DNA from: Dehalococcoidia bacterium
GTDB taxonomy: Bacteria > Chloroflexota > Dehalococcoidia > Lucifugimonadales > UBA3495
Length of the DNA: 47,239 bases
Reading direction: 5' to 3'
Assembly (NCBI GenBank): GCA_022451925.1
Contig: JAKUNL010000009.1
Location: 10,923-58,161 of the forward strand
The notes under the pieces are model-generated. The model ran no database searches. It was not told the origin of the DNA and was given only the letters and a program-made list of their open reading frames with translations. This document shows positions 16,236 to 20,731 of this stretch, piece after piece; position 1 is the first letter of the stretch, and every line of letters begins with the position of its first letter. The translations under genes were made by a program, and so were the position numbers.

Positions 16236-16751
16236 ATGAATTATTTTCCCAGAAGCAAGGTTACTTTCATATGTGCACTTGTGGCTACCGTGCTGGCTGT
16301 GTCCTGCGGGGGAGCCGGACAGAATGCCAGAGATTTTGAAGTGGTTCAGTTCAATGGTGACACTTTCCGATTATCGGAAGAGGTGAAAAACCATGCCGTA
16401 GTGCTGAATTTTTGGTACCCAAGCTGTCCTCCCTGTCGTGTAGAGATGCCTGCTTTTGAGGCGGCGTGGCAGGAACTCAAGGATGAGCCGGTTCGATTTT
16501 TAGGGCTTTATGTCCCTCAGGGAGTCGACTCGGAAGAGGATGCCAGAAATTTTATTGAGGAATTAGGTTTGACCTTTAACTTTGCCACTGATCGCCTGGC
16601 CCGGATCGCCGAAGCATATGATTTGGAATATTTCCCGACGACATTTTTTATTGGTATGGATGGTAATGTGGTGGCTACCCACATTAGTATCTTAGAGACT
16701 GAAGAGATCGTCCGTCAGGCAAGAGCACTGCTCGGAGGTTCAGCATATTAG
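16236..16751 (+). CDS. Thioredoxin-like lipoprotein (TlpA/ResA type)
   Basis: This 171-residue exported thiol-disulfide protein starts with a basic N-terminus and hydrophobic stretch (FICALVATVLAVSC) ending in a lipobox with the lipidated cysteine at C24, so it should be anchored on the outside of the cytoplasmic membrane. The mature part is a thioredoxin fold with the active site Y-P-S-C64-P-P-C67 and the cis-proline loop FPTTFFIGMDG. CPPC with a membrane anchor is seen in TlpA/ResA proteins that reduce apo-cytochrome c or copper-site cysteines. The CopD-like membrane protein gene begins 30 bp later, which supports a copper or cytochrome role (inference). Trm112 follows. Confidence 0.92.
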   Translation: MNYFPRSKVTFICALVATVLAVSCGGAGQNARDFEVVQFNGDTFRLSEEVKNHAVVLNFWYPSCPPCRVEMPAFEAAWQELKDEPVRFLGLYVPQGVDSEEDARNFIEELGLTFNFATDRLARIAEAYDLEYFPTTFFIGMDGNVVATHISILETEEIVRQARALLGGSAY

Positions 16752-17302: not shown

Positions 17303-17494
17303 ATGAAGAAAGACTTGATGCAGATACTGGCTTGCCCAGTATGTAAGGGTGATTTAGATTTGCAAATCGAGTCGGAAGACGGCGACGATATCATATCTGG
17401 CAGTCTGAACTGCTCCGCTTGTAACGAGTCTTATCCCATTGAGGAATCGATTGCCAACCTGCTGCCTCCCGATCTCCGCCGAGAATTGGCATAA
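17303..17494 (+). CDS. Trm112 family zinc-ribbon protein
   Basis: This 63-residue protein has the Trm112/YcaR pattern ILACPVCKGDL (C11, C14) and LNCSACNESYPIEESI (C37, C40), then LLPPDL. Its eukaryotic relative is an activating subunit of several methyltransferases; bacterial members are small zinc-ribbon proteins of unclear role. ATG 17303 has GGAG 5-6 bases before it, so an upstream in-frame GTG at 17285 is rejected as the start. It is the last gene of a short run with the lipoprotein and the CopD-like gene, closed by a terminator. Confidence 0.9.
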   Translation: MKKDLMQILACPVCKGDLDLQIESEDGDDIISGSLNCSACNESYPIEESIANLLPPDLRRELA

Positions 17495-17521
17495 GTCCGA
17501 CTTATTGGCAATCCAATGAGA

Positions 17522-17550
17522 AGCCCCCTGGACACTTGCAGCAGGGGGCT
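17522..17550. terminator. Terminator between Trm112 and the UGSC selenoprotein
   Basis: AGCCCCCTG (17522-17530) pairs perfectly with CAGGGGGCT (17542-17550) around an 11-base loop, followed by CTTATT on the plus strand. It lies between two converging genes and can serve both. Confidence 0.75.
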
Positions 17551-17575
17551 CTTATTCGCTGTGATTATTCTAGGG

Positions 17576-18115
17576 TTAACCCTCTCCGGTCAGTACACGA
17601 ACTACCATGGGGGCTAGTTCTTCGGCTCTGGCTTTCAGAGCTGGCCGATCCATATTTTCTATGGGATGAGGTGTGAAAATAGTGGGATAATCAGGTGCTC
17701 CCCACATTCTGGCCATACCCTGAGCTGTAGGTACGAATCGATCGGTACAGATGGTTGCTGAAGGGATTCCGGCGTTCTCCACGTGGATTCCGTCGTGCAC
17801 ACTGCACGCACTGCATGATCCTCAATCACCTATCGCAATGACGACCGAGTCCACTTTTCCTGTCAACTCTTTCAGAGCTTTGGGGTCTGCGGCTTTGGAG
17901 GCGCTGGGTTTTCGGTGCCAGTGAACCTCAGTGATTTCGTATCGCGTTTTCAGCACCTCTGCTAATTCCTCAAGGAGGACATCGGCATTTCGCTTGCTAT
18001 CGTCGATTATACCCAAACGAGTGCCGGCCAGGCTGGCCAACCGTGGCGCCCCATCGAATGGAGCGATTACAGGCTGGGTAACTGGGTTTACCAATACATG
18101 TTCACTCTGGGCCAT
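17576..18115 (-). CDS. UGSC family selenoprotein with in-frame UGA (Sec98)
   Basis: Conceptually this is one 179-residue protein. Reading from ATG 18115 (GAGGGGAG upstream), the frame runs 97 codons to VVIAIGD, meets TGA at 17822-17824, then continues in the same frame with GSCSACSVHDGIHVENAGIP to a stop at 17576. The UGA is the first position of the U-G-S-C motif for which the family is named, where other members carry Sec or Cys. The alternative, a nonsense pseudogene, is unlikely because both halves remain fully protein-like and continuous in family pattern: N-terminal LAGTRLGIIDDSKRNADVLLEEL, C-terminal ICTDRFVPTAQGMA and PIENMDRPALKARAEELAP. A SECIS-like hairpin follows the UGA. The family is a Rossmann-like fold of unknown function; U/C-G-S-C and the nearby C-S-A-C suggest redox chemistry. 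Standard annotation would split this into two genes. Confidence 0.85.
17785..17821 (-). promoter_or_regulatory. Putative bacterial SECIS element in the UGSC gene
   Basis: Counting the U of UGA as 1, GGAU (4-7) can pair with AUCC (37-40), and CGUGC (17-21) pairs perfectly with GCACG (27-31) around the loop AGUGU. The second loop base is G, the loop lies about 20 bases after the UGA, and the stem is within the coding region, all as expected for a bacterial SECIS recognised by SelB. The hairpin tip is at 17794-17808. This is a by-eye fold, not a computed one. Confidence 0.65.
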
Positions 18116-18427
18116 TACTCCCCTCTCTCTGCGCCGCTAGGTGACGCTAAGTTCGTATTTGTATCGATTGTCGCAATCTCAGGTTGAAAAAGCAACGTAA
18201 TAGTCGTTTGTCACTTGGCTCTTCAACCAATGGCAAAGAATCGTACTTCTCGTCTAATAACAATAAACCGAGTTTCCTGTTTCTTCATGCTATATGTATA
18301 TACCTTCTCAGTTTGTGTATGAATGGGAATCTTGAAATTGTGACGGTGACCTATCCCTAGAGGCAAGATATCAAGGTGTAACCCTTCAGTAAATATCTCT
18401 ATTTGCTTGCTATGCTTCTAATCCCAA
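18116..18427. other. Intergenic gap between the UGSC gene and its upstream neighbour
   Basis: 312 bp with low GC and no convincing frame. The UGSC ribosome site (GAGGGGAG) is at its 5' edge on the minus strand. The gap is long for a co-transcribed pair, so UGSC may have its own promoter; I see no strong one. Confidence 0.4.
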
Positions 18428-19486
18428 TCATCTAACTAGTTTGGTTACGGCGGTCGACCCGACTTTTGGACCCCAACTTGGAATCACAGAAGACATGTTG
18501 GATTCTTCACCACCGGCAAATATTAGAAGGATATCGTCGGGCTCAGGAATGAGTTTAATCATCGTTTCATGATCGCTCGATTCTGGGTCACCTTTCAGGA
18601 CCATAGCCGCCTTGAGGTCGGCCACTGATCTCTGACAGTGATCGAATAAGAAATTTTTCACTTGGGCTTTGGTCCAGTCCTTCCATAGTTGCGAGTTACC
18701 TGCGATCGTTACAACAATCTGACCCTGGCGAATTCCGATACCAGTGTCGCCGACGGAACCGGAGGTGGACATATTGGTACCCAGGCTGGATGCCGCATCG
18801 GACAGGGCGTGCAGGATCGGTTCTGGGTGGCCAACGGCTCTGACTTGGCGGGGCGATTCACCGGCAAACACTGTGACTGTGCTTTGGTCAGCGGTGAAGC
18901 CGCGTTCCACATGCAAGGGTGTCCAGTGGGTATCCTGATCGGCTTCTGCTATGCAGTAAGTGTACTTTCCAGGATGACCGATGACGCTGCGGTCGAAAAC
19001 TCCGGGGATTGCAGCACAAGCATTCATTAGAATAAGCCGAACGGCGCGACCGATGGTGGCGTTGGCCCTGTTTCCGGGGCCAAACAGGTTGTTTCGGGAG
19101 TTTATGTTCAACTCCTTGCAGATGGGCCCGTTCACGATGGATAAGATTGCCGAACCTCCCATACTTGATGAAGGCCCCACTAGGTTGAAAACCGGGTCGA
19201 GCATGGCTTCGGTGGCAGTCAAAACCACCGGCATGTATTCAGGGAGGCATCCGGCCATCACAGCGTTGGCGGCTACTTTGGCAACGGTTATTTCGCGGCG
19301 ACGCTCTGGTATTTCCCCGACCACCTGTCCGGCTGGGCGTCCGGAATGTTCTATGAATTCGTTAACCCGTTGTTCAGTGGGCGGGACAACGGGCAAACCA
19401 TCGGTCCAACCTAATTCATAGCAGCGTTCGATGGCTTCGAGGGCCGAATCCCATTGGACTGTGGTTGTTTCGCCGAAATCTGGCAA
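18428..19486 (-). CDS. Conserved-looking protein of unknown function, upstream of the UGSC gene
   Basis: This 352-residue soluble protein has no family I can name with confidence. It has ordered, conserved-looking blocks: YELGWTDGLPVVPPTEQRV near the N-terminus, AVMAGCLPEYMPVV (about 93-106), GPSSSMGGSAILSIVNGP (about 124-141, glycine/serine-rich and loop-like), FGPGNRANATIGRAVRL, and VTIAGNSQLWKDW. Cysteines include AGC, GPIC, NAC, YTYC and FDHC. There is no signal peptide or membrane helix. The start is TTG 19486 with GGAGGG about 8 bases upstream. It lies upstream of the UGSC gene on the same strand with a 312-bp gap. From its place it may be a partner of the selenoprotein (inference by proximity). 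Confidence 0.82.
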   Translation of the reverse strand: MPDFGETTTVQWDSALEAIERCYELGWTDGLPVVPPTEQRVNEFIEHSGRPAGQVVGEIPERRREITVAKVAANAVMAGCLPEYMPVVLTATEAMLDPVFNLVGPSSSMGGSAILSIVNGPICKELNINSRNNLFGPGNRANATIGRAVRLILMNACAAIPGVFDRSVIGHPGKYTYCIAEADQDTHWTPLHVERGFTADQSTVTVFAGESPRQVRAVGHPEPILHALSDAASSLGTNMSTSGSVGDTGIGIRQGQIVVTIAGNSQLWKDWTKAQVKNFLFDHCQRSVADLKAAMVLKGDPESSDHETMIKLIPEPDDILLIFAGGEESNMSSVIPSWGPKVGSTAVTKLVR

Positions 19487-19700
19487 AGCTGGTTCCCTCC
19501 GGTTGAGTGTAGTGATTTATGTGGTTTGTATGTGCTTGCCCCTGTGATTCTGAACAGGATTGAAGAGTTTATTTATTGTTAATGGGCCTGTTTCACGTAT
19601 GGGGGATATAGGAAATAGGTGTTAGTTTGGACACGATTTAATAGGTGATTTTGCCTCTATTTCCTGCACGGTCGCAAGTTTCGACATCATCTGGCCCGGC

Positions 19701-19723
19701 CTTCCCCCCTCGCGAGGGGGAAG
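19701..19723. repeat. GC-rich near-perfect palindrome
   Basis: CTTCCCCCCTCGCGAGGGGGAAG is an inverted repeat centred on CGCG, with one extra C in the left arm. It lies 60 bp after the stop of the NHL gene and 215 bp before the 352-residue gene. It could end the NHL transcript, though no T-run follows on that strand, or be a dispersed intergenic palindrome. Confidence 0.5.
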
Positions 19724-19783
19724 GGATATTTTCGACAAGATGTTAGTCGTTGGCAGGCTGTCGATAGCCAAATAGCTACCTTG

Positions 19784-20731
19784 TTATTTGGCTAGGGTGT
19801 ATTTCGACAGGGAACGTAGTTCCTTGGGCGGGTTCATATGGGACCCGCGTATGGTGAAGGAAACTTCTGCCACATAAACGGACCCCTGAGAGTCGACTGC
19901 AATACCGTGGGGGGCGATGAATTGTCCCGGTCCTTCACCCTCGTTCTTATCGCCGAATTGACTTACCTGATTACCATTGAGGTCAAATATAGTAACTCGG
20001 TGACCCAGACCGGGGGCATCATCCACTCCCCCCATACCGTTAAGTTCACCCACGTAGATGTGCTCTCCCCAGAGGACCATGGAGTCTGGTCTGTGGATAT
20101 TGCTCCACATAGTCTGGAACTTGCCGTCTGTGTCAAATATTTGAATTCGGTGCGCTTCTCGATCTACAACATAAACGTTGGCGTTACTGTCTATGGCGAT
20201 ATTGTGGGGACGGATGAATTGTCCTGCATCGATGCCGGGTTCGCCCCATGAAAACTTGTATTCGCCGGCTCCGGTATAGACGTGGATCCGAGAATTACCG
20301 TAGCCGTCTGACACATAGATGTCGCCGTTGCCTGGATGGATGGCAGCTGAGGTAGGGCGATTGAAGGGTTCACCGCTCCAACGAGGAGCGGGGTTGTTAC
20401 GCTCGCCGATTTCGAGCAATTTTTCGCCGGCAGAGCTGAACTTTTGAATGGTATGTATGCCGTCATCTGAGCAGAGGAGTGAGTCGTCGTGGGCGATGTA
20501 GAGTCCGTGGGTTCGGTCGGCGCTGAAATCCCCTTTTCCAAAAGAACGGATGTAATTTCCATCACGGTCTAATACGATGATTGGCTCTTCGCCGCGGGTT
20601 AGCACAAATACGTTGTCGTTTGAGTCGACGGCCACACCGGGGCATTCTTTAAAGGACATTCCGGCAGGCAATTTAGCCCAATTTTCAACGAAGTTATAAC
20701 GAAAATCACCTGTACCGTAGACCTCTGGCAT
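19784..20731 (-). CDS. NHL-repeat beta-propeller protein
   Basis: This 315-residue protein is built of about six NHL-type repeats with the recurring pattern GVAVDSNDNVFV...IIVLDRDGNYIRSFG, then HNIAIDSNANVYVVDREAHRIQIFD and HGIAVDSQGSVYVAE. Such proteins make a six-bladed propeller used for binding or, in peptidylglycine alpha-amidating lyase relatives, for metal-dependent catalysis. No signal peptide is visible, so a cytosolic place is likely. ATG 20731 has AGAAGG upstream at good spacing. It lies on the same strand as the GMC oxidoreductase, 352 bp downstream of it. Its ligand is unknown; enzyme activity cannot be claimed. Confidence 0.88.
   Translation of the reverse strand: MPEVYGTGDFRYNFVENWAKLPAGMSFKECPGVAVDSNDNVFVLTRGEEPIIVLDRDGNYIRSFGKGDFSADRTHGLYIAHDDSLLCSDDGIHTIQKFSSAGEKLLEIGERNNPAPRWSGEPFNRPTSAAIHPGNGDIYVSDGYGNSRIHVYTGAGEYKFSWGEPGIDAGQFIRPHNIAIDSNANVYVVDREAHRIQIFDTDGKFQTMWSNIHRPDSMVLWGEHIYVGELNGMGGVDDAPGLGHRVTIFDLNGNQVSQFGDKNEGEGPGQFIAPHGIAVDSQGSVYVAEVSFTIRGSHMNPPKELRSLSKYTLAK

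Follow-up and report, generated by a model that had tools for sequence, protein, structure and literature searches.

The window analysed here, a stretch of 47,239 nucleotides from the draft assembly of a Dehalococcoidia bacterium, carries on its minus strand a UGSC-family selenoprotein gene (17576..18115) that is almost certainly intact and not broken, and that very probably forms an obligate functional pair with the next gene upstream (18428..19486). The explanation favoured here, and considered likely, is that the selenoprotein is the catalytic subunit, and the product of the neighbouring gene the other subunit, of one selenoenzyme. The UGSC gene itself is a further member of a known, functionally uncharacterised selenoprotein family; what is new beyond the known family is its strict partner, the covariation in its SECIS hairpin, its relation to the glycine reductase subunit GrdB, and a predicted fold of apparently non-thioredoxin type.

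The gene encodes 179 amino acids including selenocysteine (Sec) 98 (stop codon counted in the coordinates), and is read in a single frame from 18115 to 17576, with an in-frame TGA at codon 98 (17822..17824, minus strand), no frame shift, and TAA as the terminal stop at 17576. The initial annotation had given exactly these coordinates, and had taken the UGA for the first letter of a U-G-S-C motif, which is borne out by the sequence around Sec98 (...VVIAIGD-U-GSCSACSVHDG...), where TGA followed by GSC at codons 98-101 makes up the U/C-G-S-C motif of the family. Its family assignment stands as well, the joined protein matching PF24696 at 190.1 bits (E 4e-56, cut-off 25) and NF041046 at 153.9 bits (above the cut-off of 125), whereas the N-terminal half up to the UGA alone reaches ~70 bits and ~50 bits, respectively. 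The two halves, which it had called protein-like, thus match the same family in register, and dN/dS is below 0.1 on both sides of the UGA in every computable comparison (dS being saturated); by this measure, purifying selection is as strong downstream of the UGA as upstream. The likeness to the PF24696 and NF041046 family extends over residues 20-176 and includes the motif, the Sec site and a SECIS after the UGA, and nothing essential sets the window gene apart from the ‘UGSC-containing protein’ family described in PMC2398784. Cys101 (codon at 17813..17815), the second residue of U-x-x-C, is invariant in both alignments (A1 and A2), and other members carry W, A, S or G at position 104. Because C104 varies, the conserved pair is U98/C101, and the additional C-S-A-C redox pair suggested in the initial annotation finds no support. 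Its description of the ribosome site as strong needs correcting as well, the putative GGGGAG lying only 2 nt ahead of the ATG.

The partner gene (18428..19486, minus strand) encodes 352 amino acids, with a TTG start preceded by GGAGGG at 19500-19495. Its product matches no Pfam or NCBIfam family, and aligns over 203 residues, at 39% identity, with the C-terminal domain of a UGSC paralogue (L030), a single long protein in which UGSC is fused to a partner-like domain. A homologue of the partner lies beside UGSC, or is fused to it, on the same strand at 82 of 83 loci, in varying order; at the exception (L087) it lies on the same strand ~5.3 kb off, as inferred from the coordinates of a probable matching genome. 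Of 60 related genomes, 47 have both UGSC and the partner and 13 have neither, and the copy numbers of the two genes are correlated (r = 0.985) and equal in 35 of the 47. Across 16 pairs their divergence is correlated too (r = 0.90, Mantel p 0.0002), with a weak correlation (r = 0.52, p 0.048) among the seven paralogous pairs of the host genome. What counts against strict pairing is an eighth partner copy in the host genome (L146 / L178, contig C4:28327-29364, plus strand), beside which no UGSC gene was found. The near-constant company of the two genes nevertheless suggests that their products probably form one enzyme.

Gene fusion points in the same direction. Open frames of ~530-650 codons occur at UGSC in many other Chloroflexota and suggest further fusions; among the ones whose loci were fetched, most showed partner homology in tblastn. 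A fusion of UGSC to a domain termed Unknown_1 was described from ocean metagenomes in 2008 (PMC2398784); Unknown_1 is probably the partner protein and the L030 fusion probably the same arrangement. The UGSC/Unknown_1 protein so described is a fusion, whereas most of the UGSC and partner copies in the present analysis are separate genes.

A clue to function comes from GrdB. The region of UGSC around Sec matches the GrdB model TIGR01917 with an E-value of 6e-7, scoring 28.7 bits where the cut-off is 602.2, and hhalign against a GrdB set (from related genomes, with the UGA of each protein read through) gives a probability of 91% and an E-value of 1e-6, with Sec aligned on Sec, in alignments that are small. 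On these alignments the Sec domain of GrdB is a relative of UGSC, the two sharing a U-G-[ST]-[CS] core. Like UGSC, GrdB (PF07355, TIGR01917) has U-G-[ST]-C-x-x-C following a strand, located in its C-terminal Sec domain, but it also has a large N-terminal part that is absent from UGSC. Glycine reductase contains the pyruvoyl subunit GrdE, and hhalign detected no relation of the partner to it (probability 0.2%); the host genome has no match to PF09338, and no relation of the partner to GrdB or to PrdB-like proteins was detected. Two PrdB-like proteins of the host genome, relatives of a D-proline reductase subunit, share with UGSC a U-x-x-C motif (UPAC/UPGC) with Sec right after a strand, but do not match the UGSC profile significantly, in what is a weak test with only these two sequences. 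Among GrdB-like genes of related genomes, five (L108, L109, L110, L111 and L115) continue after the TGA with GTSTRSG, where Ser replaces the usual Cys of U-x-x-C; GrdB-like L118 has UGTCNRCG.

In the proposed mechanism, SelB and Sec-tRNA would decode UGA 98 as Sec thanks to a hairpin 14-28 nt downstream, and the UGSC product would act as the catalytic subunit together with the 18428-19486 protein as the other subunit. The partner would hold a small organic substrate, which Sec98 would attack as a selenolate, breaking a carbon-heteroatom bond. The product would leave in reduced form as Cys101 goes on to form a selenenylsulfide, and the enzyme would be reset by a cellular dithiol. The paralogous UGSC/partner pairs in a genome would be isoenzymes with different substrates. 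Selenolate attack and selenenylsulfide formation belong to the mechanism put forward for glycine and D-proline reductase (PMC10298544). Reductive cleavage of the C-F bond in fluoroacetate has been linked to proteins related to GrdB (PMC10838667), so that amino acids need not be the only substrates of such chemistry. By analogy, GrdB-like reductive cleavage by UGSC is a plausible assignment, held with slightly less than even confidence. Somewhat more tentatively, UGSC and its partner may represent a distinct class of two-subunit selenoenzyme, in which a minimal GrdB-type Sec domain works with a substrate subunit that is no relative of GrdE, and which has multiplied to several isoenzymes per genome in SAR202-type bacteria, acting on the carbon-heteroatom bonds of dissolved organic matter. 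The genomic neighbours of UGSC, surveyed by eye or by Pfam and not systematically, are mixed catabolic genes in which nothing constant was found as a clue to the substrate. On the other strand, at a distance of two genes, lies a gene for a ResA/TlpA-like thioredoxin-family protein (16236-16751, plus strand), a possible electron donor.

The invariant Cys101 in a U-x-x-C motif would also fit a stand-alone thiol/selenol oxidoreductase of the thioredoxin or peroxiredoxin type, with the partner in the role of accessory or client, and the metagenome papers drew a thioredoxin-type idea from this motif. This reading is considered unlikely. The AlphaFold2 model of UGSC (pLDDT 85, pTM 0.80) shows strands and helices alternating in a sandwich, with Sec98 in the loop that leads from strand 3 to the following helix. 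Its best structural neighbours have flavodoxin-like, receiver-like and lumazine-synthase folds, so that the predicted fold looks flavodoxin-like and gives a thioredoxin fold no support, though the absence of that type from the match list is no proof in itself. Searches of the PDB with the UGSC protein and profile found no credible relative, and the sequence relation that was found is to GrdB instead. Moreover, thioredoxin-type selenoprotein families are usually rich in Cys homologues, according to PMC2398784 (Table 2), and none were seen among the UGSC members examined.

A second alternative keeps the two-subunit enzyme but replaces reduction by a step of, for example, lyase or transferase type, in which Sec would form a covalent adduct without net reduction and the partner would be a second catalytic subunit. 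The invariant residues of the partner are mostly polar or aromatic (W27, D29, N74, C80, R147 and E181) and are compatible with an active site, and searches with the predicted partner fold gave a very weak resemblance to class I fumarase, besides cyclic amide hydrolase and FtsZ-like folds (all with TM 0.26 or less and Z below 7). With TM 0.26 and Z 5.6, the likeness to fumarase falls short of significance, and a profile search of the PDB with the partner found no credible relative. The partner models are uneven (pLDDT 76 for the best, below 50 for the other four), so a claim about the partner fold is withheld. The invariant Cys101 near Sec suggests a redox cycle and speaks against adduct formation without net reduction, which is regarded as improbable.

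The decoding of the UGA as selenocysteine is supported by its conservation among homologues and paralogues. The host genome has seven UGSC genes, each with exactly one TGA, and TGA occupies the Sec site in 79 of 79 homologues (fetched loci, motif-matched only). Every UGSC match listed from the related genomes (~150) contains one TGA, as do 72 of the 75 matches listed from a phylum-wide sample, the remaining three having Thr (ACC), Met (ATG), or, in a fragment, an end short of the site. The Thr and Met relatives (L176 at ~5179 and L177 at ~2350, reverse strand) have a degraded motif with partner-like sequence alongside, and are possibly inactive copies. The relatives found outside the host genome are 61-96% identical to the UGSC gene at 17576..18115. 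All come from metagenome genomes of Chloroflexota or Dehalococcoidia, several of which bear the label SAR202 cluster, and by its nearest relatives the host genome is itself a SAR202-cluster Dehalococcoidia MAG. The initial annotation had described the site as one occupied by Sec or Cys, and had named a lack of Sec insertion genes together with a lack of homologues with Cys or UGA at this site as grounds for rejecting its reading; the insertion genes are present, and dozens of homologues with UGA were found. The Sec or Cys alternation agrees with a published count of 255 Sec against 21 Cys forms, but no Cys form was found among the UGSC members examined in Chloroflexota; the same source places UGSC among the commonest selenoprotein families of aquatic metagenomes (PMC2398784). 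Immediately before the UGA, Asp codon 97 (window 17825-17827) is GAT in 59 of 61 UGSC genes, compared with 30% elsewhere, and the U right before the UGA therefore seems constrained.

Downstream of the UGA lies a SECIS hairpin with the core CGTGC-AGTGT-GCACG (17794..17808, minus strand; 14-28 nt past the TGA). The RNA form CGUGC-AGUGU-GCACG or a variant occurs at +14 to +28 in 45 of 45 distinct sequences, and all 225 of 225 pair cells in the stem are standard pairs; shuffling the columns leaves 96.7%, and sliding the 3' strand 2-76%. In four sequences the inner C-G pair is replaced by G-C, a compensatory swap that accompanies replacement of Cys104 by Trp and an altered codon 106. Synonymous codons are locked at positions 103-107 of the UGSC genes and vary outside: Ala103 is GCG in 52/52 (25% elsewhere in UGSC genes), Cys104 TGC in 59/59 (76%), Ser105 AGT in 61/61 (6%), Val106 GTG in 56/57 (40%) and His107 CAC in 62/63 (70%). 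The bacterial SECIS pattern is a small apical loop with a guanosine shortly past the UGA (PMC1088965), and the UGSC hairpin has both the loop G and the location. Minimum-energy folding of the window stretch alone showed no excess over shuffles, and no Rfam model matched 17400-19800 at gathering score; since the single-sequence folding energy is unremarkable, the case for the SECIS is a wholly comparative one.

The host genome is equipped for Sec insertion. It encodes a tRNA-Sec with anticodon TCA, SelB (348 bits, cut-off 242), SelA (557 bits, cut-off 268) and SelD (377 bits, cut-off 125), so that all of the genes (selA, selB, selC and selD) for which the initial annotation had proposed a check are present. 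The selD gene (L021, contig C45:73071-73988, minus strand) itself contains one in-frame TGA, and the selenophosphate synthetase is therefore probably a selenoprotein too. Two PrdB-like genes (PF07355) on contigs C34 and C77 (L133:4422-5657 and L134:2141-3610, both minus strand) have an in-frame TGA in U-P-[AG]-C, and together with the seven UGSC genes and selD these bring the selenoprotein genes of the genome to at least ten. The remaining explanation of the UGSC gene, a pseudogene or a sequencing error in which a Cys codon (TGC/TGT) was mutated to or misread as TGA, can appeal to the single nucleotide separating these codons and to the draft state of the assembly, but is in practice already refuted: six paralogues of the genome share the TGA, as do 79/79 homologues, which come from dozens of independent assemblies, with purifying selection past the UGA, codon lock and covariation in the SECIS, and Sec genes in place.

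A gene of this kind would be mis-annotated as two fragments. The strict partner, the link to GrdB and the high copy number make the uncharacterised function of the UGSC family testable, and up to 13 UGSC copies per genome suggest that SAR202-type bacteria need a considerable supply of selenium. Among the papers searched, none names both SAR202 and selenoproteins; five mention both UGSC and glycine reductase, none of them with both in its title or abstract.

Around the UGSC/partner pair, no promoter signal above chance was found. A strong G+C-rich hairpin (CCTTCCCCCCTCGCGAGGGGGAAGG) is located at 19698-19724, ~200 bases upstream of the partner gene, and is possibly a terminator or a repeat.
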